From: Scenedesmus sp. ARA3
Taxonomy: Eukaryota; Chlorophyta; Chlorophyceae; Sphaeropleales; Scenedesmaceae
Assembly (NCBI GenBank): GCA_004335835.1
Contig: RWJK01001936.1
Span: forward strand, 1-64,000
DNA length: 64,000 nt
Direction: 5' to 3'
The translations under genes were made by a program, and so were the position numbers. Each line of letters begins with the position of its first letter. The first letter of the stretch is position 1. Positions 4,129 to 63,806 of this stretch are shown piece after piece. Under the pieces are notes generated by a model. That model was not told where the DNA came from and searched no databases. It saw only the letters and a list, made by a program, of their open reading frames with translations.

Positions 4129-7100
4129 TTCAACCACCCAAACGTCGTGCGAGCTTTCCGCTGCATCACCTACAAGCAATCACGCATGCAGCACATCCCT
4201 GGCAGTGCACCCAGTAGCGGCGGCCACCACGCAGCAGCAGCAGCAGCAGCCGGCATGCCAGCCCTGCTGACTCAGCCAATCACAGCCTCTCAGCTGCTCG
4301 GCTCCGCCGCTGGCACCCGCAGCAGCACCAGCAGCTGCAGCAAATCTCAGGGCACCAGCCAGCCACTGCCAGCTGCACTGCTGCAGCAGCACCACCAGCG
4401 GCAGCAGCAGCAGCACAATCAGGCTGCAGGGTGCGTCGCGCCGCAGGCAGCTGCAGCAGCATGCAGCAGCAGCATCTTCTACACGCCCTCGGGGAAGCCA
4501 CCCGAGGTAGCTGCTGCATTTGGCGCTACAATGGGCCGCTCTCCGCTGATGCCAATCCTACACGGCAGCAGCAACAGCGGCAGCGATCAGCAGCAGCAGC
4601 AGCAGCAGCAGCAGCACTCAGGCTCGATGGGAAGCAGCGTGCAGCTGCACAACTCGGCGGCACACAATGCCCTGGGGCTCGGCGGTTCAGCGGGCAGGGG
4701 TTCAGCAGGCCAGGGTTCAGGCGCAGGGCTTATGGTGTTTGGCTCGCTGGATCAAAGGGGCTCGAAGGAGGGTGGCCCGCAGCAGCAGCAGCAGCAGCAG
4801 CAGGATGGTGCTAATGCAGTGGGCAATGAGGTCAATCAGGGCAGCACTGGATCCCTGGAGGGCTGCATGACGTCACTGCTGCTGGAGGAATCTGAGCGAG
4901 CAGAAACCTGGTGAGGCCTGAGGGTTCAGGTTTTGTTTTGCACTGTGTTGATGTGCTTCAGATCGTCATGCCATGCTAAGCTGCCTGTATGTGTACAAGC
5001 AGGGTCCTTTGATTGCACTTCAGATTGCCATGCCCAGCTGTGTGTGTGCGTAGTGGAAGGTCCTCTGATCGCATTGAGCTGCTGCAGCTGCGCACAGCAG
5101 AGGTGCTGAGTCATTGTGCCGCTGCAGCAAGTGCAAAGCACCACAGCGTCATGTGTTGTGCTCAACTTGTTTCGGCTGTGGCTGACCTTGCCTGTGTGCT
5201 GCTGCTGCTGCCTTGCCCACTGCTGCAGGCTGATCACCGAGTACTGGTGAGTGGCTCGAGCTTGCGGCACAGCTCTCACGATTGACTCGTAGCAGGCAGC
5301 AGCAGCAGCAGCACAACAGCAGCACGCTGCAGCCACAGCATGCATGGGCTCCACAGCATCTGCATCTGCTCGTCATGCGTGCAGCATGTCCTATCCCCTC
5401 CTGCCTGAATACTCATTTTGCACAAAGTTCATGTCGTTCATATTCATAGACAAACATAACGCATATCAAACTCCTACTGCAGCAACTGCAGCGCGCTAGG
5501 CAGCCGTCCACCTTCTTGATGCCATTAACCGTGTCTTACCTTACCTTTTTCTCCTCATTTTCCTCATTTTCCCCTCCTGCTGCAGTGACTGCGGCACGCT
5601 GGGCAACCTGGTGGCCAAGCTGCCAGCGCCGTGCCCACAGGACGACGAGCGGATGCTCAAGGTGCTGCTGCTGCTGCGTGACGTGGCGGAGGGGCTCAAG
5701 GCGCTGCACGAGGCCGGCGTAGTGCACGGCGACCTGGTGAGAATTATTTTGTGTTATGTTATGTGATCATATGTTATTTCCATGGAGTAGTAGCACGTCG
5801 GCCAGTGCAGTGGTGGCGGGGCTGTGCGCGCTGCACAAGGCCGGCGTGGTGCACGGCGGCGTGGTGCACGGCGATGTGGTGGGCATGACTGTTATTGTTA
5901 TGCTACGTTATGTTGTGTTATGTTATGTTATGTTACTTCCAAGGAGTAATAGCGTGTGGGCCAGTGCAGTGGCGGAGGGGCTCAAAGCGCTGCACAAGGC
6001 CGGCGTGGTGCACGGCGACGTGGTGGGGATGTTTGATTACATACTTTTGATTTCAAATGTGTTCCTAACGGACAGGGACAGGTAGTCCAATTATGTCAGC
6101 TGTTGTCGCAAGCGCTGTGTCGCATGGTAATTTTCCCTATTATGCCCCTTACAGGCGTGCTGCTGCTGCTGCTGCTGCTGCCGCTGTGCAGAATGGCCGC
6201 AACGTGTTAGTCAGCGCAAGTGCCATGAGCCCTCTGGGAGTGGTGGCCAAGGTGGCAGACCTAGGTGAGTGCTGTTTGAATGCAGCTGCTGGCGCCTGGG
6301 TGTCATGTTTTGACCACCACAGTTACAACAGATTGCTGTTTGAAACCATATCATTGCTGCAAGCATTATGAGACTGCTGCAAGGTGTTGTGTACCCTTGC
6401 CGACAAGCTCTTCAGTTGGCAAAGCATGATCCTGTCAAAATCAAACGCTGCTGCTGCTGCTGCTGCTATCATCCCTGGTGTTGTCGGTGGTCCGCAGGCC
6501 TGTCTCGCACCATCAAGCAGCACGAGACGCACAGGACCACCAACACCTGCGGCACCCTCAGCCACACGGCACCAGGTGAGGCCGCGGACACCGTGCCAGG
6601 CCGTCGCTTGCCTGCTGCCCTGCAGTGTGTATGCAGCATTCGTGTAATACTTTGCGTGCATCACGGTTCAAGCCAACAGGTTCCCTAGCATACCTTCCTG
6701 CACCCAAGACACAGCGATGCATGATGGCTGATCACTCTCCGTAGCTTGTCCTGCAGGACAAGGTGCTTAGAGGTCCTGCAGTGCAGTGCTCAGCAGCTAT
6801 CATGCGTGTGCTGCTGCTGCTGCTGCCGTTGTGTAACGCGTGTGCACCTGTCTCTGCTTGCTGCAGAGCTGCTGCGCTACGGGCGCATGGGCATGCCTGC
6901 TGACGTGTACGCCTTTGGCATCACCATGTGGGAGCTGTACACGGGCCAGGTAGGAGACTGAAATGGGTTTAAATTAATTTACACAACCAAAGGAGACGTT
7001 CCAGGAAACGCTTGCGTTTCGCATCATCATGCGGAGCAGCAGCAGCAGCACTGCGCTGAGGATAGACAGATCAAGCGGCAGCGCATTCTGTTGAGATGAT

Positions 7101-9801: not shown

Positions 9802-10020
9802 GGCATGTGCATGTGAAGGAATGGCTGGACGGCATTTGCATGTGAAGGAATGGCTGGACGGCATGTGCATGTGAAGGAATGGCTGGACGGCATGTGCATG
9901 TGAAGGAATGGCTGGACGGCATGTGCATGTGAAGGAATGGCTGGACGGCATGTGCATGTGAAGGAATGGCTGGACGGCATGTGCATGTAAAGGGATGGCT
10001 GGACGGCATGTGCATGTGAG
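9802..10020. repeat. 29-bp minisatellite, about 7.5 copies
   Basis: The unit GGCATGTGCATGTGAAGG plus AATGGCTGGAC is repeated head to tail, with only a few substitutions (one TTTGCATG copy; the last two are GTAAAGGG and GTGAGGGG). The near identity suggests recent expansion. The minus-strand ORFs reading HMHMPSSHSFTC are repeat artefacts. Confidence 0.9.
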
Positions 10021-14868: not shown

Positions 14869-16256
14869 CCATACATCAAATTGCATTTCAAGCCATAGCA
14901 ATAGCCCCATCGGTCCTTCGCCCCACAGGAGTGGTCAAAAGTGGGGGCGCCATCAGCATGTGCGCGATCTGTCACATGCGCTGGAGCAGGCTTGCCTGCT
15001 GCCGCTGCGTAGGTAGCACTCAAATGCGCAACACCATGATGATCACCAACAGGCTTGTGGTCCCGGCTTTTGGTGATGACACGCATGGTTGCCCTGCCGT
15101 CATCCGTCCGCTGCTGCGTGCTCACCCCATGAACAGGCAAAGAAGCAGCAGCAGCTGCCCTCCACTGCTGTGCTTGTGGGCTCACCAAGCGCTCCAGTAA
15201 TGGGCTGCCCAGTTGCTGATGACAGCCTGCCTGATGTGACATACTACAACCACCCTGTTTGGAAACTGTGAAAAAAAGAAGCTGTGAAGAAGGACAACTA
15301 TTTGGTTTGGCAGCTGGGCACAGCATCACTCACAAGTGATCACTAACTTTAGGGTTTGGGCGTCATCTCGATGGCTTAATTGGTGGAAGGACTGCCCCTA
15401 TTCCAAAGTAGAGGGAGAGAGGGGAGGGATAGGTTGCGCCATTGCGACAGCGACAGAGACTGCGGCCCAGCAGCGCTGTTGCGGAGTTGGTGTTTCCGCT
15501 TGATGATGAAGTAATACTGTACGCAGGCCTGGCCCAATGCCATTTGGTGACCCACTGGCGCTAGACCAGCCCAGTTTCACCAAGCCTGGGGACGGTTGCA
15601 ACCGCACATTGCATTGAGAGAGGCTAGTTACATGTGGGTCCTGGCACCATCTTAGATGGTATGAGCCACAACATTGCAATGTAGGCTGAGCCCGTGAAGC
15701 ATATGTACAAATAAGCATATTCCAGTGTTACTTGACTGAGCCGCTCGGACCTGACAAGCAAGAGCTGTTAAGAGCTAGGGGCGCAGCAGCTACACTGACA
15801 GGCTGTCAAAGGCAAACAGCCAAATGCTGTGGGGACAGCTCCTGCATGGCACAGTACTGCTGGTGGTGCTGGAGACGTACACCGCAGTACAACCGTTGCA
15901 CAGCAGTACAGCACAGCAGCGGTCCCTTGCGTCTCATGCTCCACCCAACTGACAACGGAACAGCAACCAGCAGCCAACAAGCTGCTCATAGACTCGACTG
16001 CCAACCTGCTGCGATGCACATCCGCAGCGCAAGCCCTGTGCAAGTCCTCAAAAAATGGTCCTCCAGCCCCGCAAAAAGAAGCCCAGAAGCCAACTGCTCC
16101 GTCTTGCAGGACAGCAGCAAGCCGTGCTCCTCATCGTTCTGCTACGTAAGCACTCCTGCTTTATGCCTGAAAATGAGGCCACCAACGGTAATCCCCTCAC
16201 CGCCCATATGCACACAGTTGCCTCAAATCAATTGCGCTGCATGCTGTGCCGCATGC
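14869..16256. other. No gene recognised
   Basis: Intergenic. A 212-codon plus ORF at 15732-16370 is low complexity, Cys/Ser/Gln-rich, and runs into an antisense duplicate of the mS29 3' end, so I do not treat it as a gene. Confidence 0.5.
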
Positions 16257-16330
16257 TCACAGCAGCCTCAAGCCGGTCTGCGTGATGCTGACAGACCAGC
16301 GCAACAGCTCCTCGCCGCTGCTGCCAGATA
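16257..16330 (-). repeat. Extra copy of the mS29 coding 3' end
   Basis: The minus strand repeats the last codons of the neighbouring mS29 gene (EELLRWSVSITQTGL, then two more residues and a stop) with few substitutions. It lies about 240 bp beyond the real stop codon. The copy has no visible upstream exon. Confidence 0.75.
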
Positions 16331-16512
16331 TCCACCATTTACTGGTTCATTATATGGGTCCTCAAGCTGACGTCGCCTGCGTCTGGAACTCTGCACCAGT
16401 CGTCCGCCCCTTCTGCACATTCGGGAGTAGAAGGTGAAAAAGAACCAAGACATAGCTGCAAAGGGCAAGCCTCTTGGCACCAGGAGCAAGCACTGCAGCA
16501 TGCATGCTGTGC

Positions 16513-18782
16513 TCACAGCAGCCCCATGCCGGTCTGCGTGATGCTGACAGACCAGCGCCGCAGCTCCTCGCCGCTGCCGTTGGTCAGAGCCCGCATCGCA
16601 GCCACCTGCTGCTGGCTGGGTGGGGCGGGCACCAGCCCTCGCTCATGATAGTAGAACAGCGCGTGCGCGGTCTCCACCTGCAAACAGTGGCAGCAATCGC
16701 ATAATGTTGCTGTTGTGGCCACAGAACATGCCGGGTGGGCTGGGCACCAGGCCGCGTTTGTGGTAGTAGAACTGTGAATGTGCGGTCTCCACCTGCACAT
16801 ACTATAAAAAAGGAGCATGCACAACTTGCAAAGCGGCTGTTGTGCATGGTACATGCTTCTCATGTAAGGGATGACAGAGCACATGAGTGGCCTGGCGGAC
16901 AAGAGAACGCAGCCGAACGCATAGCTCCTACACCCGCGCCTCGCCAGCCAACCATCTTGAGCCAAAACACACACGCGCACCGCCTGCTGCTGCTGCTGCT
17001 GCTGCTGCTTACCGGTGAGAAGCGCGGCATGTGGTACTCTGCTGCTGCCTTGTTTGGCACCGCCAGGTCAGCAGGCACCGCCCCGCTGGCACTGTCAGCC
17101 ACCAGCACGCGGCACTGCGCCAGGTCATCACGTTGCAGCAGCCTGAAGCCCCGCGCCTGCAATAAAGATAGGTGCAGCAATTGCAGCAGCACATTGAAAC
17201 AAGCTGCAATGACACGCGGCGCTGCGCCAGGTCATTCCGCTGCAGCAGCCTGAAGCCCCGTGCCTGCATTCCACATGTAAAAATGCAGTGTTTGCAGCAG
17301 CATCTAAGAGCTTTCAGCCACCAGCACACGGCACTGCTGCAGGTCATCACGCTGCAGCAGCCTGAAGCCCCGCGCCTGCATTCCACAAACAAGTGCAACG
17401 TTTGCACCAGCATTTTGATATCAGCAGCAATGACATGCGGCCCTGCTGCAGGTCAGTACGCTACAGCAGCCTGAAGCCCCGCGCCTGCATTTTAAAAGCA
17501 GGTGTAATGTTTGCAGCAGGTATTGTCAATACAAGTTGCAATGACATGCGGCACTGCTGCAGGTCATCACGCTGCAGCAGCCAGAAGCCCCGCGCCTGCA
17601 TTCCACAAACACAAACAAACAGATGCAACAGCAGATTGCTGTCAGCCACCAGCATGCGGCACTGCTGCAGGTCGTCACGCTGCAGCAGCCTGAAGCCCCG
17701 CGCCTGCAGCCAGACATGTCTAAGGTCAGCAGCAGCAAAGTGACTGAGCAGCCATCACACAACACAGCACCCACTGAAAGCACCCTATCCATCTTGCATA
17801 CTTCAAAGAAATGTACGGCTTCACTACATATCTATGTATTGATTGGTGTAACGCTTAAAAAAATCAAATATCATCACGCACCAGATTCAGCTTGTGCACT
17901 GGCAGCTCCTGCCGGTACTGATACGCGGGCTTGCCCCGGGGGCTGCGGCTGATGGTGCGCCCGTAGTCGCTGCGCCAGTGCAGCGCATTGTAGCCGTCAA
18001 CAGCCAGCAGCACCGGCACGGATGCTGACAGTGCTGCAAGCTCCTTCACCAGCAGCAGGCAGCAGTCCACTGCAAGTCGAGCCTGCAGGCAGCAGTTGAA
18101 GACGCACAGCACATGCATGAGGAAGCAGATTTGTTGTGACGATGTTGTTGCGCAGTCAAGATGAGGTTATGCGCAGATGGATAGCAACACATGCAGCTGG
18201 CCTGGCAACCAGGGCTGTGAATGCCTTTGTCTGCTGCAGGCAGCTGTGCAGCTGCCGCACGCCTGTGCCTGTGTCCTGCTGGGCAAAACTTTGCTTCAGC
18301 CAACGACACGCCCATTCCCACAACCACAGGTACATGCAAAGCCGCTGTCGCCAAACAGCAGTGCGCCACCGGCAAAGCAACCACGCAGGCAACCAGCTGG
18401 ATGAGCTATTGCCGTGTCTCATAGGAGCAGATCAGGCCAAGGCATTGCTGCGGCAGCAGCAGCAGCAGCAGCAGCAGCAACTCACGTTATCGTCAGTGCT
18501 GAGCCCAGTCATCACCAGGTCTCTCAAGCTGTCCCTGCCCTTGCTGACAGCAGCACCGCCCGCAGCGCCGCCGACAGCAGCAGCTGCAGCAGGCGACTGC
18601 AGCAGCTGCAGAGACTCTGGCAGCTGCAGCTTGTGGCCTGCTAGCTGCTTGTCATGGCTGTCTGCAAAGGACTTGAGGATGTGCTGCGCTGAGATGATGG
18701 TGTCATATGTGCCATCGTCCCGCTTGTAAAAGAAGCCGCCGCGGGTGAGCTCAACAGCTGCTGGGATGTACAGCGCGAGCCT

Positions 18783-18813
<31 letters not shown>

Positions 18814-45775: not shown

Positions 45776-46826
45776 GCCTCTTGTTGGGTATTCGAACAGG
45801 GTTCTAGAGGGAGATCTCCCTGGCTAGGTGGAGCATGTGAAGTAACATCATCACAGCCTCATTACCAACCGTCTGCCAGCAGTGCCAACCAAGCCGCGAT
45901 GCAGCAACACAGCCAGACCAGACACTGCCCGTTGAAGCTCTGCAGCACTTTGCGCGCTGGGGACTGTAGTGCAAAGCAGTAGTGCAGCAAAGAGCTATGT
46001 AAGCTCATGGCCAGAGCCACTTCAGTTAACACCAAGACTGTGACAGTTGCAAGCGCCAAGCATGAATACAGAACACGCACATGCACCAGTGGGTGATGCC
46101 TTTGGGTTCTGATGCGCACAGCTGCACGTGCAGCCGGCTGTCAGTGATACACAAGTGCATCCACATCTGCCCTGGGCAGGATAATGAACTCACCAATCTT
46201 CTGACAGAAGTGGCACCTGTGCAGCTGTGCATGCCGTCTGCAGGAAAAACACAACCTATGTCTCGAGCATCATGCCATATGGCACACTTGCACCAACATT
46301 TTGACAACCTGCCTTCTGCTTTCTGGGGCATGGCAGCTGCAGCATGACTAACAGCATGCCAGCTGCCGGCCAAACGCATGTTCTTGAAGTCCCTTTTGTG
46401 CCACAATGGCGTACTCCAGCCTGAGCAGCATTTCGCCACAGTGCTTTATCAACAGCAACAGCCGGCTACTCAAGATAAACAGCAAAACAACAACACACAC
46501 GCTGACAGAAGCAGAGCGCTGCAGACATCAGAGCGCATCAGGAAACACGCGCCTGTGGGCATGCCAGCACGACGAAAAAAGCAGTGCTCACAAAGCATGC
46601 TGTGCCAATTGTGTAAGCAGAGGCCAATCCAATGCATTGGCTGGGACCAACGACAAAAGTGCAGCAGCGGTTGCAGCAGCACACATCAATCAACCAGCTG
46701 CACATGCTAGCTATACCTGCGGGGCAAGTGCTCAGCCAAACACGATGCAACAGACTGCAGAAGGGCACTAAGTGAGTAGTTCTTCCTCTCCCCTCAAAAC
46801 GAACTGCAAGGGCCACCAGCACACCC

Positions 46827-47244: not shown

Positions 47245-47537
47245 CTATTCAGCCATAGGCTCAGGGTTCGCTGCAGCTGTTGCAGTCCCACAGCCCTCCC
47301 CTGCTGCAGCCGTCCCCACACCTCCCACACCCACCCCAGCCCCTAAAACACTGCCGCCACCAGCCGCCGCCGCCGCTGCTGCTGCTGAGCCGGCTGCTGC
47401 AGTGTGGCCGGCGCTGCTGTTACTGCTGCTGCTGTTGCTGCCGATGAGGTGGCGTGTCCAGGTGCACTTGCCGGGGTCCCGCCGCAGCTCCCAGGATGGC
47501 CAGTACTTGGTGTCCAGCTTGAGAGTGAGCACCTGCG

Positions 47538-47583
<46 letters not shown>

Positions 47584-50500: not shown

Positions 50501-53500
50501 TGATATGGCTAGTTATTAATACTGCAAATGCAGATTTGGGGCCGTGCAGCCTCCGTAAGACAGGGCGAGAGTTTCCACGTGCTATCGCCGGTGTTTCGAA
50601 TGGTCTAGATAATTCCCGTGGCCTGGTTGTTTGACGCGCGTTGCAGATCGCCCGCCAGCACAACAGCGATGAGTTGGGGCGTACAGACTTGAAGTCAGAT
50701 GTAACCTAAAACAATAACTTTTACTGTGCTTTTTATCGTTTGTCTGAGTTGTCCATGTCAAGATCCGTGCTGCCGTGTTGGGGCTTGAGGCAACAAAAAG
50801 TGCGGTGTGGAACAATAGCGAAACGAATGGTTTGAACCCGCTTCCCAACGGTTCCGCCGGCCCAGGGCTAAGGCCATGCCATGAGTGGCAGGCCAACCCA
50901 GCGGACGACGGTTGACCAGGTACAACATTAGCTCGTATCCTTCTTCACACATGCTTGCAATGGCAAGATGGTGAACTGTACACCCCATGGTGATTAGTTT
51001 CCAGTGTGAGCAGCGCAAACACAAACCAAGCGTAAACTCTGCACTGCCCTATACAAAGTATTGATTTCAAGCTGTAAAAATAAGCTGTAAAGATGAAGGC
51101 TGCGCATGCAGCGCACACAGCAGCAGCCCCACCTGACAGGCAGCGGTGGCGCGCTGATGCGTGTGGCGTCCTGCGCCACCAGGCGCTGCACCCAGGGCGC
51201 AAATACATGCGTGGGCAGCCCTGCGCACCACTCCCGCTCCTCACGGTCAACCTGCAGCAATCAACGGTCAGCGGCCAGCGCTTAGCCAGTATTTGACTTG
51301 CAGCAGTCAGTAGTCACTGTGTACGGCTTTTCAGCAGTCAACCTACATTTCTGCATAGCACTCTCACTCCTCGCGGTCAACCTCATGCATAGATTGTACA
51401 CTCTGGACAGCAACAAAGTCAATGAAACAGGAGAATACATGATGCGGTGTGACAGGGTCCTCAACACGCAGGGCAAGTCTTTCATCATATGCGCCAGCCG
51501 TGCCGCACCTGCACCGCATAGCTGCCCCGCGGTGCCCGGATGCGGCCCTCATCTGCTGACATTGATAGCGAGGGTGGCTAACACATGTGGGTTGTCGCAC
51601 CAACTTAACTGGTACGAGCCAGCAAGCCACAACGTGTGAACGCATGGTTGAAGACCAGCAAGTGAAAAAAAGACTGACCACGATTTTCATATCGCACCTG
51701 CTCCGCGTAGCTGCCCCACAGCGCCCGGATGCGGCCCTCATCGTCTGTGAGCACGCCGCTGAAAGTGGCGCCAAAGTCCTGGTCCAGCTTCACGACTTCT
51801 TCGTGCACAGCACGGAACCTGGGGGCAGAAGAGCAGCAACAGCAGCAGCAGCAGCAGCAGTGTCAGAAGGTGGCGCCAAGTCCTGGTCCAGCTTGACACC
51901 TCTTCATGGGCAGCACAGAACCTGATGTGGCAGCAGCAGCAGCAGCACAATCGCATCCAGGTGATCTGACAGTGGGGACTGGTTTGTGCTCCTGGCCTGG
52001 GCAGGCAGCTGCACCATTACGCCCACCAACTGGCTGCTGACGAATAGCTGGATGTCTATTTCAATACGATCGGTTGGAGCGAGTGGCTTTTCCACCAGTG
52101 TGCACTCATCAGCTCAGCTGCTTCACTCGGGCACTTCGGCACTGGTGATGGTCAGCGCCACCGTCAGCGCTACATCAATTGCTTTGATATTCACAGCCGC
52201 TGGTTGAGTGCACAAAAGGTACACAGTGGCTGTGCAGCTGCCTCACCTAGGTACCTCAGCGCTGGGGATGGTGAGCGCCACCGTGGCGTTGGTGACGGTG
52301 CTGCGCCGCTGCATTATGCGCAGGCTTTTGGTGAGCCCCACCAGCATGCAGCGCTCGCCCCGCGCCAGCGGCGGCGACGTCAGCAGCTGCAGCAGCAGCA
52401 ACAGCAGCAGTAGTTCTAGACATGAGCTGCAGGGCCAGGCAAGGGCACAGGCGGCGGAGATCAGCAGCATTAGCAGGTCACACACGACATGCCTATTGCA
52501 TGGTGATGTGATAGCTTAGGGCACACAGCACAGCCATAAGACTGATTCGCAACACCAGCTACAAGCTATACAACAATGCCCCAATTTACAGGTGTAGACA
52601 CACAACACCTGCAAGGCATGCAGCTAAAGCACCGGCAGGATATGTACGCGCCAGGGCTTTGCTAGGGTTTGGCTAAGCTTAGAGTTGGCGCCCACCTGTG
52701 CGGCCCGGAACTTGGACCGCACCTCTGCTGGCAGCGCTGCCGGCGAGTATGCCACCAGGGCAATGTTGTGCAGCGGGTGCAGGAACCGAACGATGGCTGG
52801 GATCTTTGGCTGTGGCTGGGGTTTGACTGGGATTCTGCCAAGTTTGACTAGAGTTTCAGCCAGGGTTTGACTAAGCGATGGCGCCCACCTGTGCAGCCGG
52901 GATCTTGGAGCGTGCCTCTGCCGGCAGCGCTGCTGGCGAGTACGCTACCAGCGCAAAGTTGTGCAGCGGGTGCAGGAAGCGCACGATGGCTGGGATCTCT
53001 GGCTTTAGCTGGGGTACAGTTGATCTCACTAGGGTTTACCTGGCATTCTGCCAAGTTTTTTAGGGTGTTGCTGGGGTTTGGCTACAACCTGACACCCACC
53101 TGTGCGGCCCGAATCTTGGAGCGTGCCTCTGCCGGCAGGGCAGCTGGCGAGTACGCCACCAGCGCAAAGTTGTGCAGCGGGTGCAGGAAGCGCACAATGG
53201 CTGGGATCTCTGCTGGGTGCGCGCCAAAGCACAGGTTGACATCACAGGTGCCAATGGTGATGGTGTTGCGGTCAACCTGCGGTGAGAGGCATGAGAGGCA
53301 GCACAGCATGTAACAGTTGAGCAATGCAGAGCCAGCAGGTGCTGCAACTGCCGCTGTCAGCACAACTGCGATCCAACAGTTCAGTACAAGCTGCCACCTA
53401 CACCTACACCTGCTGCAAACACAATGCCTCATTGCCTTAGCCAGCAGCAGACTCACCAGCACGAGCCCAAGGTGCTCCCCGTGGTACACCACCAGCCCAT

Positions 53501-56500
53501 TGCCTGCAAAGCTGCGCGCATGCACACCATCCGACAGCGCCACCAGAGGAATATCCACATCCACCAGCACCAGGCAGTTCTTCAAAGCCTCTTCCACATC
53601 CTCCCGCAGAACTTCCCCTGCAGCAGCAGCGGCAGCAGCAGCAGCGGCAACCACTGCGCCGCCGCTGCCTTCCGGCCTGCTGATGCCAGCCGCCGGTGCC
53701 GCCACGACAGCAGCAGCAGCGCTGTTGCCGTTGCTGTGCTTGGCTGCGGCTAGGCGCGCACGCGTGGCGGCAACGATAGGATGCAGCGGATGCGTGCCGT
53801 TTGCTGCTGCGCCAGCGGAAGCAGCCTCCTGCAATGCATCATCTGCGCCCCCCGCTGCTGCTGCTGCTGCCTCCGGCACCTGCTGATCCTCACTACCTCC
53901 CGAAGAGCCATTTGCCTTCACTTGCTGCTGCTGCTGCGCGCTGTGGCCCGCAACTTTAGGCAGCAGCAGCCGCGCAGCAGCAGGGTCTGTAACGCCAGGC
54001 GGCAGCGGCGGCCAGTTTTCGCTGGGGTGCCACGCGCCTGCTGCGTCGTCACGCACCCAGTACAGCGGCACGCCATACCACTGCCTGTCCACCTGCAATC
54101 ACGGCAAGCGGCAGCAGCATGCCCCAGGTTGTTGAGATATTTTGGTACATCGAGAGGGAGTAACTACTGACTCTGCAAGTCAAGGGTGACACGTCTCCCC
54201 TTGCCACCCTGCCTACTGTCCACACAACAAGCCTGATTGTAGGTGACGAGCCTGCGCCTGCAACGCGCTGTTTCATGCGCAACTTTACTGACCAGCATCA
54301 GACAAGTCACGTGGCCACCACTCTATTTGTGCCCCGACATATTCCACAGCACATCACACCTGCAGGATTGCGCTCTTGCGCCTGTGCCGCTCCCCAAACG
54401 TGATGTACTCCAGCGGCACGCGCGCGCCATGCTGCAGCCCCCGCAGCACCGCAGCAAAGCTGGCCAGGTCTGGCGTGGGCACACCATCCAGCGAGGTCAG
54501 CAGCGCATACTTGGGGATGGCTGCACGCCCCAGCATGTAGCCGGGCTGCAGTAGATCCAAACCAAATGACACAGCAGGCGGGCAGGAGGGAAGGTGAGCA
54601 CATGCAGCTGGTGAGCAGCGCGCACTTGGGGATGGCTGCGCGGCCAAGCATGTACCCGGGCTGCAGCGGTTCACAAATATTGATGATGCAGGTAGCAGCA
54701 GGANNNNNNNNNNNNNNNNNNNNNNNNNNNNNNNNNNNNNNNNNNNNNNNNNNTGCAGGTAGCAGCAGGAGGGCAGGTCACATTCAGTGAGGGAGGTGAG
54801 CAGTGCGTACTTGAGGGTGGCTGCACGCACCAGCATGTAACCAGGCTGTAGATATTCAGAGGTGGTGACACAGCAGGCAGGCAGGAGGGCAGGTGACATT
54901 CAGTGAGGGAGGTGAGCAGCGCATACTTTGGGATGGCTGCACGGCCTAGCATGTAGCCGGGCTGCAGCAATTTACAAATATTGGTGATGCAGGTAGCAGC
55001 AGGAGGGCAGGTCATATTCTGAGAAGCAGGTGAGCAGCGCATACTTGGGGATGGCTGCACGGCCCAGCATGTAGCCGGGCTGCAGCAATTTACAAATATT
55101 GGTGATGCAGGTAGCAGCAGGAGGGCAGGTCATATTCAGAGAAGCAGGTGAGCAGCGCATACTTGGGGATGGCTGCACGGCCCAGCATGTAGCCGGGCTG
55201 TAGCAGTTTACACATATTGATGATGCAGGTAGCAGCAGGAGGGCAGGTCACATTCAGTGAGGGAGGTGAGCAGTGCGTACTTGAGGATGGCTGCACGCCC
55301 CAGCATGTAGCCGGGCTGCAGCAGTTCACAAATATTGATCATGCAGGCAGCAGCAGCAAGGGCAGGTCATATTCAGAGAAGCAGGTGAGCAGCGCATACT
55401 TGGGGATGGCTGCGCGCCCCAGAATGTAGCCGGGCTGTAGCAGGTTGCAGATAATGAGGCAGCTGGTGAGCAGTGCATACGTCGGGATGGCTGCACGGCC
55501 TACCACCGCCCTGTTGTCGCCCGGCCCTACATGCGTTGGATCGATACCAACTGCTGCCAGCAGCTGTTTACTGCAAAATGTGCCATACGCAACCTCACCT
55601 CTGGCACATACACCTGCCCCAACACGGCCCTCTTGCTTGAAATTACTGCTGCTCTAACAGCATTTGCTTGACACCAACTGCTGTGTGTACTGCAAGATGT
55701 ACCATACGCAGCCTCTGCTCCCACCTCTGCCACATGCACCTGCCCCAACACGGCCCTGTTGCTCAGCATCTGCTGCCCCAACAGCATATGCTTGACACCA
55801 ACTGCTACTAGCAGCTCTGTACTCCCAGCTGTGCCGACGCAAGCTCACCTCTGCCACATACACCTGCCCCACCACCGCCCTGTTGTTGCGCGCCTGCTGG
55901 TAGCTCAGTGCGTGCACACTGCCGCCAGCCAGCTCCAGCATGGCATTCGGAGTCACGCTGTGCAGGTTTGTCACAGGCAGCTGCACAGTCAGCGGCTTGC
56001 CGCCGCGCTCCAGCTGCAGCTCGATGGTCTGCCCTACTGCTGCATCCAGCAACTCTTCTAGCATCAAGAAGTGCGACACGACCTGCAACAGCAGAAGCGG
56101 CAGCAGCAGCAGCAGCAGCAGCAGCAGCGGCGGCAGAGGTGAGATGGTGGCAGCATGAACAACGACATACATGTGCCGCCACAGTAGCAGGTACGGTAAG
56201 TGCAAATGATCAAAGAGCTGTGATGAACAGCAGCTGCATCTGCAGCATCGGTGCCAGCAGCAGCTCAACCTACAGCACTGCTGCAAGCAGAGAGGCCAAG
56301 GAACATACATGGAACTGAGTTTCCAGGTACGACATCTACATACGCACGCACTGATTGCAATGGCATCGCACCTGGCCCTGCACGCGCACGAGCACATCTC
56401 CCGGCTCCAGCACACCATCTGCTGGGCTGCCAGGCACTGTGGCCTCCACCACCAGCAGGCCCACAGTGTGCAGCTGCGCCCCACCAGCATCTGTGCGGAC

Positions 56501-59334
56501 GATTCAAATCAAAACAGCGCAAGTCACACAGCACGAGTTGTGGGTAGTGTTCAGGATGTGCGAGCCAAGGGGTTTAATGTAATACTGACTATGGCCACGG
56601 GCTTGATTGATGATATGCCTGCCAGAAGCATACACAGCTTCCTGCAAGCTCAGCTAGAACGCTGAACACATGTGAACTAGCAAGCAATGATGCGGTCTGG
56701 TTACCAACAGCAGCCTGACTTGCAAGAAAGCAGCTTAGGATAAACACAAATGCATGGCAGCAGTCGCCTCACCTGGCGCGCCATGGCTGCGTGCCTTGGC
56801 CAGCCGCACCACTGCCTCCGTCTCCTGCCGCAGCCCCAATCGCCGCACCTCATCAAAGCCCTTGAATACAAACGTGCTCTGCAGCAGCATCAGCAGCAGC
56901 AGCAGGAGCAGCAGCAGCAGCAGTAGGAGGTGTTGTAGCACAGGGAGCAGCAGCAGCAGCAGCAGCAGGAGGTGTTGTAGCGCAGTAAGCAGCGCATGGC
57001 GAGTTGCATGTTGCTCTTGTCAGGCGGCTCCGCTTCTGTTGCTGCCACAGGTCACCAGGCAACCTCCTCCGTCACACATTTGAAAACACAGGGCACTCAG
57101 ACCTTGAAGAGTTGCAATCCTGCTGCTGCAGGAACAATCATCGCACCTGCAGGTCTCCCCGCGAGATGCATGCCGCGCTCCAGCCGCTGCTCAGCTGCCC
57201 ACCCAGCGGCCAGTGCTGCTGCAGCAGCGCAAGCGCACGCACCACGCGCTCTAGCGGCAGGTAGTAGGCTGACTGGGCCTTGTTCTTGCCTCCTGCATTG
57301 AGCCCTATGGCGCGGCCTTTGCTGTCGATGACTGGCGAGCCGCTGGAGCCTCCTTTGGTGCCTGAGGCGGCTTGCAGGTAGAACTGCGGGTGCAGCACCA
57401 ATTGAAAGGTGCAAGGAATGCCGCATATCAGTGCTGGGAGGGGTGTGTGCAGGGCAAGGATGCTGTGTATGTTGGCAGAAAAAGGAAGGATGCTGTGCAT
57501 ATGGGCAAGGGCAGCCACAGCTACCAACAATCAAGAAATGAAACCAGCAGCACGGGAGCATGCAGCGCAACCACAAGATGCTGCACCGTCAGCATAAACA
57601 GCACAAATAACAGCCTCACCGTGTTGAAGTCGTTGTAGCCCTTGCGCCCATAATGCGGCGCATCTCTGTCCAGGCGTGCTATTGTTCCTGCAAGGATGGA
57701 CACCTTCTCACCGCTGTCATTGCCTACCACGCGAATCTCCAGGCCGACTGCTGCTGCTTCGGGTGCTAGTGGCACCTCCTGCACCTGCAGGACAGCAAAT
57801 AACATGCGTCCACAAGGTTGATACAATAATGCGGAGCTAAGCCAGGCAGCGCAATGGCAGCTGGCCAATGTGGTATGACAAGCACAGCCTTTACACTTGC
57901 AGGAGAATGGTTGCAATGCTGCCCAACATGTACAGTGCTCAACAGCCTGGTTAGGCATTTCAGAAGCAACAGCACCATTTTTACACTGCAGGAAATCTGT
58001 CAATACCTGACCAAGTAATTGCGGCTGCAGTCAACACGAACTGGGTTATATTGCTGGTCAAACCCTGGTCAACTCCGCTGTTGCAGCCACACAACCGCAG
58101 CAGCAGCAGCACCGCCCCACAGCAGCTCCGCACCTGCATGAACTGCAGCTTAGAAGGGTCGAAGCGCAGGAAGCCAAAGTCGTGCACAGGGTCGTAATAC
58201 ACAGGGTGTACCGGCAGCTCCTCCCGGTTCAAGAAGATGGCCTCAGCCACAATGGGGCCTTGCATGATATCAGGATATGAAGAGTAGCAAATCCACAGCT
58301 CGTTAGTGGCGATGTGCAGCACACAGCAGCTGTTGCTGCTCAGCAGGCAGTTAAGCAAGCATACTCAATGAGCAGTGCCATTAACCCTGGGAGCAACGCA
58401 CCCCGGCAGCTGCCGTGCTGCAGCATGTCCCCTGCTGCTGGTGCGCCATGCAACTGCCTCATCAATACTAGAACTACACTGTGAGTCAGCAACTGAACAA
58501 CAAAAAACGCCTCTGGCAATCACCAACTAACTGCTGCCAGATGCCGCGCCGGCAGCCCCAGCCTGCCGCATGCCTCTGGTAAACAGCAAGCAGCTGCTGT
58601 TGCTCGCTTACTCATGAGGAAACGCATGCCTGCAACTGCTTGCCGCACTGCACTTCTGACTGCGCACCTGGCGTCACCACATGCCTGTTTGTGCATATGA
58701 TGCCTCGGCTCTTATCCACAATGAATCCTGCAAGCAGAGCGCAGGGCAGTTGCATGGTTTGAGTGGCATTGGAATTTGCAAGCAACTGAGCTGCCGGGTA
58801 CAATTCTTCAACTGCATTGGCTGCTTTGTCACTGTGGCGTCCATCACATGCACATCCACCAGAGTGTGCTTCCTGCAACTCTTTTGCACAACAGACACCA
58901 CTGGCAGGCTGGAGAGTCATGTAAGCACGCCAGCACATTGCCTGCGCGGCCGCAGCGCCGCACACACCTGTGGCATAGCTGCTAGATGCTGGCTCTGTAT
59001 CAAATGCCCTTGTCTGTGTGACCCTGCAGGACAGCAGGTGGACAGCATAAGGAACGGCACTCTGGGCAACTGCTTTTTCTGCTTGAAAAGCCAGTACATT
59101 TGCAGCCTAGGCTGTGCGCCTGGCTCAAAGCCATGCAGGCTCCTCAAACGCCAAATGGTACTACTGTGAGCAGTTCTTATGCGCGCTGGTGCGGGCAAGG
59201 TGATCCAGGCCATGCTGTTTCTATCTTCTGCAGTGAACTCACTTCAGCACAACGCAGCACGGCACCACCTTCTCCAGCGCTCGCCTCCACTCATCAGCCG
59301 ATGCCGTAGGCTGATCGGGTGGCAATTCATCCAT
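47245..59334 (-). CDS. DEG7: DEG7-type protease (protease Do-like 7), complete
   Basis: HtrA-family serine protease with PDZ domains; the Arabidopsis protein has been linked to chloroplast photosystem II repair. Nineteen exons keep phase: 59243-59334, 58968-59023, 58668-58727, 58134-58258, 57620-57784, 57147-57383, 56773-56878, 56372-56490, 55849-56082, 54360-54545, 53457-54092, 53100-53276, 52247-52386, 51698-51818, 51133-51251, 49751-49904, 48771-49258, 48070-48217, 47245-47532; 1216 residues. Start: MDELPPDQ, then [15 protein letters not shown]. Triad: His in TNRHVV, Asp in DPVHDFGF, Ser in [14 protein letters not shown]-type motifs: [50 protein letters not shown]. The second protease-like domain ([25 protein letters not shown]) lacks a full triad, as in plant DEG7. 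The linker in the 636-bp exon is Ala/Gln/Gly-rich. No transit peptide is obvious. Confidence 0.93.
47539..47582. repeat. (CAG)n microsatellite before the DEG7 last-exon acceptor
   Basis: About 14-15 CAG triplets (CTG on the gene strand) form the tract leading to the last acceptor. Confidence 0.95.
47630..47795 (-). repeat. Three acceptor-side copies of the DEG7 last exon start
   Basis: The last exon begins [11 protein letters not shown] (high end 47532). Copies of its first 20-40 bases with the acceptor end at 47668, 47731 and about 47790. The spacers are CAG runs. Confidence 0.8.
48305..48460 (-). repeat. Two acceptor-side copies of a DEG7 exon start
   Basis: The exon 48070-48217 starts [15 protein letters not shown]. 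Copies end at 48345 and 48460 (spacing 128 and 115 bp), each with acceptor and about 40 exon bases; one retains VNG. Confidence 0.85.
49499..49610 (-). repeat. Donor-side copy of a DEG7 exon
   Basis: About 110 bp repeating the end of exon 49751-49904 ([18 protein letters not shown] to HAAQ) with its GTGGGT donor, 250 bp downstream in the intron. Nearly identical at protein level. Confidence 0.85.
50031..50061 (-). repeat. Acceptor-side copy of the same DEG7 exon
   Basis: CCTTGCAG acceptor followed by [11 protein letters not shown], copying [12 protein letters not shown] at the start of exon 49751-49904. Confidence 0.75.
51502..51921 (-). repeat. Junction copies flanking DEG7 exon 51698-51818
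   Basis: A donor-side copy lies at 51502-51560 (matching [13 protein letters not shown] plus GTGCGG). An acceptor-side copy lies at about 51870-51921 (matching [14 protein letters not shown]). The real exon sits between them. Confidence 0.75.
52117..52172 (-). repeat. Donor-side copy of DEG7 exon 52247-52386
   Basis: Matches the exon end ([10 protein letters not shown]) about 130 bp downstream of the real donor. Confidence 0.65.
52692..53003 (-). repeat. Two donor-side copies of a DEG7 exon
   Basis: The exon 53100-53276 ends with a block spanning [16 protein letters not shown] to KIRAAQ. The downstream intron repeats about 115 bp of it plus the GTGGGC donor at 52888-53003 and 52692-52806, 196 bp apart. 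The reading frame is kept open in both copies. Confidence 0.85.
54600..55535 (-). repeat. Array of DEG7 exon-start copies (PGYMLGRA)
   Basis: The real exon (high end 54545) starts [19 protein letters not shown]. The intron on its 5' side repeats the CTGCAG or CTGTAG acceptor plus about 55 exon bases at high ends 54660, 54845, 54961, 55079, 55197, 55315 and 55434, with about 118-bp periodicity. An eighth copy near 55480-55525 is fused to a fragment of the preceding exon (NRAVVG). Spacers carry GGTAGCAGCAGGAGGGCAGG. The sequencing gap lies inside the array, so the true copy number may be larger. Confidence 0.9.
54704..54753. other. Assembly gap (50 N)
   Basis: A run of 50 unknown bases, probably a placeholder of arbitrary length, inside the DEG7 exon-copy array. 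It interrupts an intron, not the coding sequence. Confidence 0.95.
55580..55765 (-). repeat. DEG7 donor-side exon copies ([10 protein letters not shown])
   Basis: The end of the exon 55849-56082 (GQVYVAE then GTGAGC) is repeated at about 55597-55632 and 55725-55757, each followed on the minus strand by GTGAGG or GTGGGA. They lie in the same intron as the acceptor-side array. Confidence 0.75.
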
Positions 59335-59777: not shown

Positions 59778-60701
59778 ATGCTGGGACGCACCTGCTTGCG
59801 CGTGATGGCAGCAGCGAACGTAGAGGGGCCACGACCCATAGCTACTGCTATGCAGCGCAAACTGGAGATGGCCCTAGCGCCTGTGTCGCTTAAGATCATC
59901 AATGAGAGCCACAAACACGCAGGACACAGGTGAGCAGCAGCAGCAGCAGCAACACATGGCCACGTGCTACATCAGCAGTGTGCCTGTGAGCTGCTCAACA
60001 CGTGGTGGTAGCAGCTAGCTCAATTGCATCAGGAAAAGTGGCTGCTTCTGGCTGAGGGAGAGGCGTGGGGTTGCAGTCGGGCTGTTAGTGCTTCAAATGG
60101 GGTTGCGACAACTCCCGTCTCTCCTGCTGCTGCTGCTGCTGCCATCCACCCGCTGCTGGCAACACCAGTGGCAACCCAACAGGCGCAGCAGATGCAGAGA
60201 CACACTTCCGGTGCGTGTGATGTCACTTTGCCATATTTTGTACACACTGATCATTGAGCTTCACATCAATGCACCAGTGGCACAGCGCATGGCTGATTGC
60301 AGTCGGCACGTGTGTTACCAAAGATACCTGCCCAGGCTGCTCTGCAAAGCACAATTGTGGCACAGCAACAGCTACAGCGGCGCAATGCTGCCGTAGCCGC
60401 CGGCAGGCAGGCTCTTTGGCTGACTCGTCTGCAGAGGGCATTGCACACGCCACACAGAAGCATTGCCAGGCACACTCACCTCAACAGAGCGTCAGCAAGC
60501 ACCAGCAAGCATCTATACCTTCTCATTTTGTCTATGATTTTCTTGATTTGTTGCAGGGTGGAGGTCATCAGCAGCGAGTTTGACGGCAAGCGGCTGGTGG
60601 CGCGGCACCAGATGATGTACAAGCTGCTGGACGATGAGATCAAGGCGGGCGTGCACGCGCTGTCCATGGACACCAAGACGCCACAGGAGGCGGGGCTGTG
60701 A
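59778..60701 (+). CDS. BolA-family protein
   Basis: Partner of monothiol glutaredoxins in iron-sulfur cluster handling. Three exons in phase: 59778-59929, 60168-60209, 60557-60701; 112 residues. The N-terminus (MLGRTCLRVMAAANVEGP) may be a short organellar peptide. Then SLKIINESHKHAGH (the conserved His-rich loop), ETHFRVEVISSEFDGKRLVA, RHQMMYKLLDDE and GVHALSMDTKTPQE. Exon 2 is only 42 bases; its acceptor at 60167 is the one that keeps phase. Which plant BolA class it belongs to cannot be told by eye. Confidence 0.9.
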
Positions 60702-60798
60702 CGCGAGTTTCAGATTCCAGATCTGATATCAGAGCCGGAGATAGGCAGTGCGGCAGCATCATGTACCGAAAGACGAGCACTGCAACTGGGTTGCTGGA

Positions 60799-60848
60799 CA
60801 TGCGCTCTCCATGGACACAAGGACAGCACAGAAGGTGGCGCTGTGACG
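60799..60848 (+). repeat. Extra copy of the BolA coding 3' end
   Basis: About 50 bp repeat the sequence around HALSMDTKTPQEAGL and its stop, roughly 140 bp downstream of the real one, with several substitutions. It lies in the 3' UTR or beyond. Confidence 0.8.
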
Positions 60849-62464
60849 CTGGTTTGCAATTGGCGCAAGTGCGCTGCAAATCGCAGCAGCACACCCTATT
60901 GCGATCAGCAATTGAATCACCCAGCACGGAAGTGCATCAGCATGCGCAGCAGTGCTGCAGCAAGATGGATCAGCAGAAGTTGGCAGCTGTGAATGATGGG
61001 CTGCTGGGCACAGCGTGCTGCAACGCGTATTGTGACGAATTCTTGAGGCGATGGGTGCATGGTCAGGGAGTGGGGTGTGCACTGCAGCGGCTCACGTAGT
61101 GACTGGATGATGAGGTGTACCAGAGCCAGTGGGTTGGCAAACCCTAGGAAACGCACAAACTGTACTTCAAGGCAACAGCTGACCCGCTGTAACGCCTATG
61201 TTCGAGCTGTTCGAACTCACAGCAGCCATCCTACAGAGGCATCCACTGTAAGATGACAGTTGTTGAAATGGTGAATGCACAACTGCGCACCTGCAAGCAA
61301 TGCTAGTCCAATGTAACTCGCCGCCTGATCTTACTAAGATACATATATGTATAGCATGGGAGTCAGAAAAAACTGTTACATACGCTGGTTTGCTGCTTGC
61401 CAAATGGTCAGCATTGGCTGCTTGTACCAATCAAGCACAAGCAGCATGTGCTGGTGCCACAAGGTTACTCATGTGTGCAGTGCGTACTGCATGCGCTGCA
61501 TGTGCAGCACAGTTGCAGATGCCATGCCACGCTGCCGCAGCTGCCATACAATCCGCACATGCCATGTCGCGCGCACGGCAATGTTAGTGTTGCCAGGCAC
61601 GGAAGCAGCAAGCTGCAGCACATATGACCAACACAGCATGAAAAAGGACCTGTGGCTACGTCACAGGTGTTAACCACAGCCCTGGGCAAGTACAGCAAAC
61701 GTTCGGAAATCACTTACAGTGCAAAATGCAGTTCTCAGTACACACGCGCGCACCGGCTACGGCGCTCGCCATCTGCAGCAGCAGCAGCTGTTCATCATGC
61801 ACTAAACTGTAGGGCTATCCAGACCTGATCGATAGACAGGTATACAAGAGGTGCAGCCAGCAGCCATACCCGAGATGGGTAGCTGCACAGCAAACACTGC
61901 AGCAGACATCAACGCCCCCAGAAGGTCTGTCCTGTTGGACAGTCCCAAAAAGGTAGTCAGAACAGAAACAAAATACACTCGGGCGTTCAGGAGCAGGTGG
62001 CACATATGTGCCTGGGGCACGCTGCGCGCTGCTGCGCTTGCATCCAGGCAGCTGTAGCACACAACAGCAGCACGCATGCACATCAGGTGCATGGCGTTGG
62101 GTACAGCACAAGGACACTGTATAACCACACACGCGATCAATGAATCACACAGTACATGGCTGGCAACTCTGCACTGCTACCCATGCTCTGAGCTGTCTGC
62201 CTGCCATGCCCCACAGATCCCCTGCCACCTCACCCTCCCAGCCTCGCCAGCAGCAAGGGCCCCAACCAACAAAAAAAACAACTGCCCACCGCAACAACAG
62301 CTCTGGAAGCAGCTGCAGCCTTGCTGCTGCAGCGACGAGATGTGGCGCCCGCAGCAGCACAGCCGCAACATCCAGAGCTGTAGCACACGCGCACACTGCT
62401 GCCGCTACTGCTGATCCTGCAGCAGCAGCGCAGCAGGCACAGCAACAAATGCTGCTGCTGCTGC
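60849..62464. other. Intergenic, no gene recognised
   Basis: Short ORFs only. A minus-strand stretch at 61802-62140 (FVSVLTTFLGL) is hydrophobic but isolated. Confidence 0.5.
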
Positions 62465-63806
62465 TCATGCAGCATCGACAGCTGGCGCCGGCGCCGGCGC
62501 AGGTGCTGCTTCCGCTGGCGGTGCTGCTGCTGCTGGCGGCGCCTCTGCTGCTGCTGCCTGAGCTGCCTCTGCTGCTGCGCCCATAGCTGCGCAGCGCGCC
62601 TCCAGCCACTTCTGCCACTTGGGCGCGCGGCCGTCTGCTGCCTTGGGCTTCTGCCGCTGCTGCCGCCTGCTGCTGTGCTGCCTGTACATGACGTCCTCAG
62701 TGTCCAACACATACGACACCTGCAGGTGCAACGGCAGAAGGCACAACGACAGGGTCAAAACAAAAACGCACAGGTCAGGAAGTGTCGTGGCATCAAGCAG
62801 CGTGCGTGGGGTGCAATTGTTGGCCGGACTACGCGCAGGTGCTCACATGCATCAACAGCATGACACAGCTTGACGTGCATCCGCTCAGCACTGTCTGACA
62901 TTGCTGGCCACGGTTGTTCCCCGCTCCCCAAAACCTCCCAGAGCCCACCTTGGAGTTCTGGCAGCTGATCTTGCACTCCAGCCCATTTGCAACAGCCACG
63001 CCTTGCAGCACCTGCAGCAGCCGCCCGCCATCGCCCGCAGCGTCCTCTGCTCTGCTGCTGCGGCTGCCGTGCTTGCTGCTGCGCAGCAGGAACACGCGGT
63101 CCTTGCTGCTGACCCCAGCAGGCGAGGCCATGAGTGATTTGATGTATTCCTGGAAGCTCACATCCAGCCCAAGAGGCTGCAGCTCACTCTTGTCTGGCTC
63201 CAGCAGCTGCAGCTGCAGCTGCCCGCCCTCCACCTGCTGCTGCTGCTGCGCATCTGCGCCGTCTGCTGCTGCTGCTGCTGCACTGTCTGCTGCTGCTGCT
63301 TGCGGTGGCGGCGTGGGTTCTAGCTTGGTGAGTGAGGGCGCAAACTGCGCGTGGTCATTGCCAACCTCGGCACCGCTGGTGACGCCCTCCATGAAGGCAA
63401 ACCTGCACAGCAGCAGCAGCAGCACAGCAGGCGATAAGTTATCGTCCCAGCAGTTCACTGGGCAAACTGCAACGACAACACATGCTTCACTTGCAAGGCA
63501 CCTCCACAGCAGCTGAGCTGGCATACATGCTGTACTCTGTGCTCCAAAAGCTCCCGACCACAACAAGATGTACAAGCCCACCTGTAGCAGGGCTCGTCGA
63601 GCAGCAGGATGTTGGCGGTGGCACAACACTATAATCACTATAACCTGATGTAACATACAGAATGAAGCGCACCTGTAGCAGGGCTCGTCGTGCAGCAGGA
63701 TGTTGGCGTTGGCGCGGTACACCTCATCAGCCACAGGGCCCCGCCGCGCCGCCTCATACTTGTGCAGCTCCACCAGCCGCATGCTCTGCTCGTCCTGCAC
63801 CATGCT
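62465..63806 (-). CDS. Unidentified protein (upstream exons unresolved)
   Basis: Three exons join in phase: 63673-63806, 62949-63402, 62465-62719; at least 280 residues. I do not recognise the family. The first exon is well ordered: SMVQDEQSMRLVELHKYEAA, VADEVYRANANILLHDEPCYR. The second starts RFAFMEGVTSGAEVGNDHAQF, passes an Ala/Gln linker, then LGLDVSFQEYIKSLMASP, DRVFLLRSSKHGSRSSR and GLECKISCQNSK. The third has VSYVLDTEDVMYRQ, a basic RRQQRQKPK patch, APKWQKWLEARCAAMG and an Ala/Pro tail. Frames towards the window edge (63902-63990) may be an earlier exon. A donor-side copy of the first exon lies in its intron. Confidence 0.6.
63581..63625 (-). repeat. Donor-side copy of the exon 63673-63806
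   Basis: Repeats TANILLLDEPCYR plus its GTGGGC donor, about 90 bp downstream of the real donor, against NANILLHDEPCYR in the exon. Confidence 0.8.

Follow-up and report, generated by a model that had tools for sequence, protein, structure and literature searches.

Tandem copies of exon borders in the introns of the green alga Scenedesmus sp. ARA3

Introduction

Exon sequence is repeated in the neighbouring intron where exons have been duplicated in tandem as mutually exclusive alternatives, and introns carry splice-site look-alikes in the form of decoy exons that regulate intron retention. Here a 64,000-nucleotide stretch of DNA from Scenedesmus sp. ARA3 (NCBI GenBank assembly GCA_004335835.1, contig RWJK01001936.1, positions 1 to 64,000 of the forward strand; hereafter the window) was analysed together with genes sampled from the 87.3-Mb genome. 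The edges of many exons are copied, in direct order, into the adjoining intron or 3' flank. Unlike mutually exclusive exons, these copies have no second splice site; unlike decoy exons, they are partial and one-sided.

Three further systems resemble the algal copies in part. The potato RdRp gene gained an intron by tandem genomic duplication (the Rogers model) and also holds an 83-bp intronic tandem duplication (PMC4974935). Such gain and the algal pattern both involve a tandem duplication in or over an exon-intron structure, the extra copy being handled by splicing. As the available text of that source describes it, however, a new intron is gained, whereas in the alga existing introns lengthen, each copy has one splice site, very many borders are affected, and spacers decay while exon parts stay alike. 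Repair of breaks with protruding ends gives short, direct, adjacent tandem duplications (PMC5730883); these are like the algal copies and would yield forced polarity, but the model, as set out in the accessible part of the paper, predicts neither the 122-bp spacing nor the lasting exon-half similarity seen in the alga. Introners, found in green algae among other organisms, likewise add non-coding DNA to genes and show similarity near to splice sites; in the portion of the source available (PMC9860276) they are similar introns in different genes, whereas the algal copies match the adjacent exon of their own gene (exon-versus-gene comparison below). In Tetradesmus obliquus UTEX 393, introns are reported to average 462 bp and 15.7% of the DNA to be coding, against 44.0% in Raphidocelis (available text of PMC5966456). 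The word intron is absent from the main text, as accessible, of two Sphaeropleales genome papers (PMC12571836 and PMC7955037), and no published description of the exon-edge copies was found in a literature search that covered mostly titles and abstract openings, and subscription papers thinly.

The copies are real and widespread, and they amount to an unusual way for introns to grow in one algal lineage. What is most interesting about them, and was missed in an earlier note on the window, is that their 122-bp spacing is narrow and that exon halves last longer than the spacers beside them.

Materials and methods

A Pfam search of the genome listed 149 protein kinase, 130 kinesin and 59 TCP1 matches. 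Kinase and kinesin loci were taken from the best 30 of the 149 and the best 30 of the 130 matches (49 merged segments, 173.8 kb), and TCP1 genes from 10 of the 11 contigs bearing TCP1 matches. Copies of 172 exons were sought in the 1,500-bp flanks of the exon concerned. Four Pfam matches that are copies themselves were kept in this first flank comparison and dropped for the dinucleotide, private-change, polarity and later tests. Four families judged doubtful (kinesin C920 exon 2, kinesin C1261 exon 1, kinase C1327 exon 2 and TCP1 C1552 exon 2) were kept in the flank comparison, the dinucleotide and private-change counts and the polarity tally of 142 copies, and dropped from the spacing, inner-boundary, identity, spacer-homology, same-age-pair, gap, synonymous, per-position and pyrimidine tests and from family counts. 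The identity, spacer-homology, same-age-pair, per-position and pyrimidine tests left out copies lacking GT or AG where it was expected. Gapped copies were dropped from the synonymous-share tests and from the codon counts of the gap test.

Results

Abundance, polarity and spacing of the copies

Copies were found at 65 exon sides among the 172 exons (52 in 59 TCP1 exons, 13 in 113 kinase and kinesin exons). When the same exons were compared with genes of the other family group, 3 matches of 21-30 bp were obtained; against other loci with same-family genes allowed (one stretch per exon), there were 25 matches in 21 exons. Reverse-complement matches in the same flanks numbered 2, against 142 direct copies. 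Within the 49 kinase and kinesin segments, 92 local repeat pairs covered 11,451 bases and dinucleotide-shuffled controls gave 0, a shuffled control of the kind that the earlier note had proposed as a check. Copies were present in 9/11 introns of CCT5, 8/18 of DEG7, 10/20 of the TCP1 genes outside CCT5 (exact), 5/38 of kinesins and 1/9 of kinases. These counts support exon-edge copying as genome-wide, as the earlier note had suggested, and as uneven. The TCP1 chaperonin genes (L066-L075) held far more copies than kinases and kinesins. In P450 genes, too, the search tables alone gave overlapping profile segments, e.g., 226-294, 227-309 and 266-310 in succession, repeated thrice, on contig C855 (20298-21047).

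Among the 142 copies, 67 were of exon ends and lay 3', and 52 were of exon starts and lay 5'. Another 12 and 7 lay on those same sides but ended inside the Pfam match, 3 overlapped the match, and 1 copy, weak and 74% alike, lay on the wrong side. After a tandem duplication over an exon border, only the copy contiguous with the rest of the exon stays usable, and other arrangements alter the protein; polarity is therefore forced. The fixed polarity described earlier thus stands as an observation, and the idea that such regularity calls for a special system does not, since geometry suffices.

Adjacent members were at most 175 bp apart in 120 of 135 distances (median 122 bp and interquartile range 109-140 bp for those 120), with a minor group at 230-260 bp. 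For 96 introns both neighbouring exons were known (29 of them in CCT5 and DEG7). These held 24 donor and 26 acceptor families in 36 introns, and median intron length was 583 bp in the 36 with a border copy versus 251 bp in the 60 without. In CCT5 and DEG7 together, some 6,800 of the 16,003 intron bases belonged to copies (hand-tabulated spacings); the 17 copy-bearing introns had a median of 622 bp, or 294 bp with the copies subtracted, and the 12 copy-free introns one of 267 bp. It is therefore supported that copies lengthen introns, and the intron growth proposed earlier was borne out.

Splice sites at the outer and inner ends of the copies

GT stood at the expected place in 63/79 donor-side copies and AG in 55/60 acceptor-side copies; both counts lean high, as junctions were chosen partly by retention. 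At the inner boundary, where an exon would need its second splice site, AG ended at 3/78 donor-side copies and GT started at 2/57 acceptor-side copies, against nearby positions at which counts scattered up to 13/78 and 8/57 (donor-side AG 12/78 at -3 and 13/78 at +7). Since the inner ends lack a splice site, the copies are not cassette exons, and membership in the cassette or mutually exclusive class was rejected. The copies are probably not normally exons. The reading of the copies as a reservoir of alternative exons, raised in the earlier note, failed on these inner ends, and its splice-site redundancy reading was not supported.

Other candidate classes were also set aside. Rogers-type gain from an AGGT-bearing exonic duplicate does not fit copies that are partial, have no splice site at the end that lies inside the exon and are separated by intron-type spacers. 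Recursive splicing (an AG|GT ratchet) was weighed in thought only and dropped, as many acceptor copies have no GT at their start. Polypyrimidine conservation was weakened as proof of working acceptors, because introns are enriched in pyrimidines throughout their 3' part.

Exon halves outlast intron halves

Copies were 74-100% identical to the real exon, and nearly all differed from it by several percent. Identity between copy and real exon was 0.87-0.91 over the first 25 bases on the exon side and 0.66-0.73 over intron bases 6-45 (115 and 116 comparisons), with a baseline of 0.56-0.63 at unrelated sites. When copies were compared with each other (54 pairs), exon-side identity over the same bases was 0.84-0.90 and intron-side identity 0.67-0.73 (unrelated, 0.56-0.63). 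Copy pairs of the same age (25, not all independent) had 0.151 substitutions per site in the spacer versus 0.085 in the exon part. Indels in these pairs affected 38/1213 spacer sites versus 0/1136 exon sites, the exon figure being biased by the filtering out of copies with shifted junctions.

The spacer was homologous to that of a family member (p<0.01) in 58/115 copies, not so (p>=0.05) in 47, and between in 10; the copied unit hence included intron DNA. Exon-part identity was the same with a homologous spacer (0.857, 58 copies) as without one (0.850, 47 copies). Among 32 donor-side copies with a spacer that fails to align with its real counterpart, agreement was 0.94, 0.72 and 0.88 at +3, +4 and +5 (0.34 expected by chance at +4) and at the unrelated level from +6 onward. 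Acceptor copies with a non-aligning spacer (27/53) kept CAG and were near the unrelated level by about -7.

Private changes in the copies numbered 71/1748, 75/1766 and 132/1458 at codon positions 1, 2 and 3. With the nearest gap-free copy of each of 61 families, 184/311 differences were synonymous (0.59, bootstrap 0.53-0.66), against a maximum of about 0.43 for a freely changing copy. Differences at CpG sites were 2.4-3.2 times commoner than others at the same codon position (copies in L006-L075). CpG was rejected as the source of the third-position excess, which persisted with CpG sites removed (194/365 synonymous in 121 gap-free copies, free-copy maximum 0.42). In two of these 121 copies all 10 changes were synonymous and none a replacement (p 0.0002 for each), and p<0.05 was reached on the synonymous-excess side in 9/121 and on the opposite side in 0. 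Third-position differences stand at 16%, much less than old spacers have diverged, and on that ground selection on amino acids was rejected as the sole cause of similarity. Decay of the exon part is slowed either by recopying from coding exons or by weak selection, or the two act together.

Border families in DEG7 and CCT5

Spliced alignment with T. obliquus protein A0A383V519 gives DEG7 19 exons and makes its identification firm. Ten border families were found at its 36 junctions (donors of E9, E12, E13, E14 and E16; acceptors of E10, E14, E16, E18 and E19), as follows, all on the minus strand:

47248..59334, minus strand, DEG7 gene, E1 at 59334-59243 to E19 at 47532-47248 (spliced alignment to A0A383V519)
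55543..55899, minus strand, E9 donor border, exon end 55849, 3' copies about 124 bp apart
54490..55505, minus strand, E10 acceptor border, exon start 54545, about eight 5' copies with a period of about 118 bp
52653..53212, minus strand, E12 donor border, exon end 53100, two 3' copies
52115..52284, minus strand, E13 donor border, exon end 52247, 3' copy 52164-52115
51504..51947, minus strand, E14, upstream acceptor copy 51947-51866 and downstream donor copy 51553-51504
49870..50069, minus strand, E16 acceptor border, exon start 49904, 5' copy 50069-50027
49492..49835, minus strand, E16 donor border, exon end 49751, 3' copy 49582-49492
48158..48481, minus strand, E18 acceptor border, exon start 48217, 5' copies
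47499..47701, minus strand, E19 acceptor border, exon start 47532, 5' copy 47701-47633

A gap of 50 N (54704-54753) lies inside the E10 array, where copy number is uncertain.

CCT5 had copies at 13/22 junctions. Copies from both genes were present in public proteins. In the model of T. obliquus protein OEZ85_003739, the DEG7 copies at 53008-52889 and 49563-49498 are included as exons; the resulting insertions of 40 and 22 residues equal the window copies letter for letter, and the protein otherwise fits the DEG7 gene of the window almost exactly (one glutamine differs). Neither insertion is present in A0A383V519 or in four other homologues. The T. obliquus CCT5 protein A0A383W8E2 has a 15-residue insertion within 1-2 residues of the CCT5 exon-10 copies and, apart from it, equals the CCT5 model of this genome over the modelled part. 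By these protein matches the genome is that of T. obliquus or a very close relative. Because the copies lie inside T. obliquus proteins of other gene sets, they are real DNA in other assemblies and affect gene models there; their presence in gene models is no demonstration of splicing into mRNA. The CCT5 model of Scenedesmus NREL 46B-D3 breaks off just past the exon-10 border.

All 23 families in CCT5 and DEG7 touch a border, which under uniform placement gives a naive p of 5.7e-6. Geometry alone would make 14.7/23 families border-spanning. When exon-derived parts were masked, 5/23 families were still visible from intron sequence (hand tally of listed pairs). Repeat pairs confined to introns were found in 3/96 introns, two of them weak, versus the 50 border families; the low recovery after masking means that the scarcity of intron-only duplications partly reflects poor detectability. 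On these two counts, the 23/23 result was withdrawn as proof of junction targeting. Because a unit is about half as long as an intron and its exon half survives better, the targeting of junctions is possible but need not be invoked.

Other borders and repeats in the window

Self-BLAST and alignments gave clusters of direct repeats at the named genes of the window, many 75-300 bp apart, and so confirmed the local direct repeats first reported there. The borders outside DEG7 are:

5683..6025, plus strand, kinase-like gene, donor border, exon end 5683-5736 with GT at 5737 inferred, 3' copies 5810-5866 and 5969-6025 (self-BLAST, alignment)
16254..16577, minus strand, mS29 gene, stop border 16510-16577 including the stop TGA at 16513-16515, 3' copy 16254-16321 (68-bp repeat)
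16615..16797, minus strand, mS29 gene, acceptor border 16615-16682, one 5' copy 16730-16797 (self-BLAST, alignment)
17092..17708, minus strand, mS29 gene, acceptor array, real border at the lowest coordinates, five 5' copies with a period of about 110 bp
34374..35010, plus strand, bL17m gene, acceptor border, exon start about 34914 (from alignment), 5' copies at about 34407-34461, 34532-34587 and 34657-34758
37421..37589, plus strand, putative ABM-like gene, acceptor border, exon start within 37531-37589, one 5' copy 37421-37478
60654..60855, plus strand, BolA gene, stop border, stop TGA at 60699-60701, 3' copy 60799-60855 (57-bp repeat)
63574..63713, minus strand, 62-kb gene, donor border within 63713-63665, 3' copy 63622-63574

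The coding frames of the window could not be told apart by codon statistics. BolA (PF01722, 65.7 bits) and bL17m (PF01196 at 33986-34102 and 34935-35090) are firm identifications. The 62-kb gene has a Sin3a_C match (PF16879, 29.7 bits) in the same open frame as its donor border. The kinase-like gene has a weak family match (PF07714, E 0.025), mS29 is named from a sub-threshold DAP3 match (20.5 bits against a cut-off of 23.1, in the frame 17867-18166 next to the acceptor array), the whole-genome family search for DAP3 having found nothing, and the name ABM is the label of the earlier note.

Exon-edge copies had been described there in seven genes. The kinase-like donor, the bL17m, ABM-like and mS29 acceptors, DEG7 and the donor of the 62-kb gene agree with that description; BolA and one mS29 copy proved to be copies of stop-codon borders. 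The stop TGA lies inside the BolA 57-bp and mS29 68-bp repeats, and the common feature is therefore the coding/non-coding border, not the splice junction. Splice dinucleotides are mostly kept, as had been said (TGCAG is retained in 6/6 units of the mS29 array at 17092..17708), except that the 5' copy of the ABM-like gene has lost its AG, and the statement does not extend to BolA and the one mS29 copy, which have no exon end plus GT.

Several repeats of other kinds were seen in the window. At 39642-45787 there is a large inverted arrangement, with several arms of 39642-41604 matching 43790-45787 in reverse (e.g., 611 bp at 84% and 258 bp at 93%), which is possibly a palindromic mobile element or an inverted duplication. 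An inverted repeat at 3248-3687 is about 81% alike over 455 bp and has 45-bp tandem repeats on each arm. At 9802-10028 lies a 29-bp minisatellite of 7.5 copies, all five exact genome matches of which are at the same place. Short tandem repeats at 19855-20145, by the mS29 gene, do not resemble an exon border.

Discussion

The copies can be read as tolerated tandem duplications over coding/non-coding borders, the exon part of which is recopied from the real exon; we give this reading about an even chance of being correct. Duplications with a unit of about 122 bp would arise over such a border. Splicing, or the stop codon, would use only the border contiguous with the rest of the exon; the extra copies would land in the intron or 3' flank and be tolerated, and introns would grow by whole units. 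The anatomy of the arrays shows this step of duplication, tolerance and growth. The intron half of the unit would then decay fast, while the exon half, with the first five donor bases or the acceptor CAG, would stay close to the real exon. For this last part we infer repeated recopying of the exon half from the coding exon by gene conversion or renewed duplication, in which another allele may serve as the source and weak selection may assist. Origin by fill-in repair of staggered breaks is suggested by the general literature. Tandem duplication is the likely origin, as supported by the direct order, the forced polarity, the 2 reverse-complement and 3 cross-family matches, the narrow spacing and the like behaviour of stop-codon borders. 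Recopying is favoured because the copies have no second splice site, tolerate single-base gaps and stops, and conserve synonymous sites relative to spacers.

Several observations weigh against recopying or against the duplication model in this form. Unless the donors are diverged alleles, simple conversion should give a synonymous share no higher than about 0.43, and so it falls short of the observed 0.59. Gaps in 14/135 copies (29 gap bases, some of them single bases) and private changes that make stops (5/278), which argue against a coding function, also mean that any recopying is incomplete. No conversion tract was demonstrated in this single-strain DNA. The tight 122-bp spacing is unexplained by the repair model, and only 2 young whole-unit two-copy arrays, one of them a 29-bp minisatellite, passed the filter set for breakpoints and microhomology.

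If the copies were instead plain neutral tandem duplications, arising and decaying anywhere, those at borders would look preserved because one exon copy is frozen by selection and low-complexity introns are prone to indels. Polarity would be automatic, geometry already makes 14.7/23 families border-spanning, spacer indels are frequent (38 in 1213 sites), and codon positions 1 and 2 have similar private differences, which is what a copy free of constraint should show. Pairs of copies, neither of which is the real exon, are nevertheless more alike on the exon side (0.84-0.90) than on the intron side (0.67-0.73), the 25 same-age pairs, not all independent and filtered in favour of few exon indels, differ less in the exon part (0.085 versus 0.151), and the synonymous excess exceeds the free-copy maximum. 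We regard this explanation as rather unlikely. An assembly artefact, the concern raised at the outset, is practically out of the question: a 50-N gap does lie within one DEG7 array, but nearly all copies are several percent off the real exon, and proteins of two other T. obliquus gene sets bear copies, two of them letter-identical to the window.

Retention for function, whether as competing or buffering splice sites, intron-retention regulators or occasional exons, would fit the donor +5 G (0.88 against 0.25 at random GT) and the pyrimidine content of acceptor flanks (0.66 against 0.46 at random AG), both in copies with unrelated flanks. It would also fit the 2/121 copies with 10 synonymous and 0 replacement changes, the one-sided 9/121, and the insertions found in a pair of T. 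obliquus proteins, two of which equal copies exactly and the third to within 1-2 residues. The inner boundary, however, has no second splice site, GT is absent at the expected place in 16/79 copies and AG in 5/60, the pyrimidine excess spans the 3' part of real introns, any local peak in the 24 copies measured being indistinct (0.044, interval -0.017 to 0.108), and another T. obliquus gene set and four other homologues are without the DEG7 insertions; such a function seems decidedly unlikely. A process linked to splicing or RNA, e.g., repair or conversion templated by mRNA or cDNA, would copy exon edges preferentially and stop sharply at exon ends. Similarity does stop at +5 or at about -3 to -6 in copies with unrelated spacers, border families outnumber intron-only pairs (50 versus pairs in 3/96 introns), and TCP1 genes hold more copies than kinase and kinesin genes do. 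The copying took in intron DNA as well, however, as shown by donor +4 above chance (0.72 against 0.34) and homologous spacers in about half of the copies; stop-codon borders are also copied, and intron-only duplications are hard to detect. This origin we judge very unlikely. On the boldest reading, exon ends with the core of the splice site would be actively and continually rewritten into introns at steps of about 120 bases, templated by the coding exon or RNA, and the look-alike arrays would be kept coding-like by recopying and not by function. Such border-directed copying is speculative and, in our view, unlikely; if it were true, the spliceosome would pick the outermost correct site and each array would be a natural test of splice-site choice.

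Whatever their origin, the copies make intron growth visible unit by unit. In a small sample, 142 of them set a true splice site beside near-identical rivals, with exon context in common over as much as about 100 bp. Gene prediction is also complicated, as false or minor exons derived from copies are present in public CCT5 and DEG7 proteins of T. obliquus. Should the exon part indeed be recopied, as in the reading of tolerated duplication with recopying, coding and non-coding DNA would be evolving in concert at the borders of these algal genes, which would be a new setting for that process.

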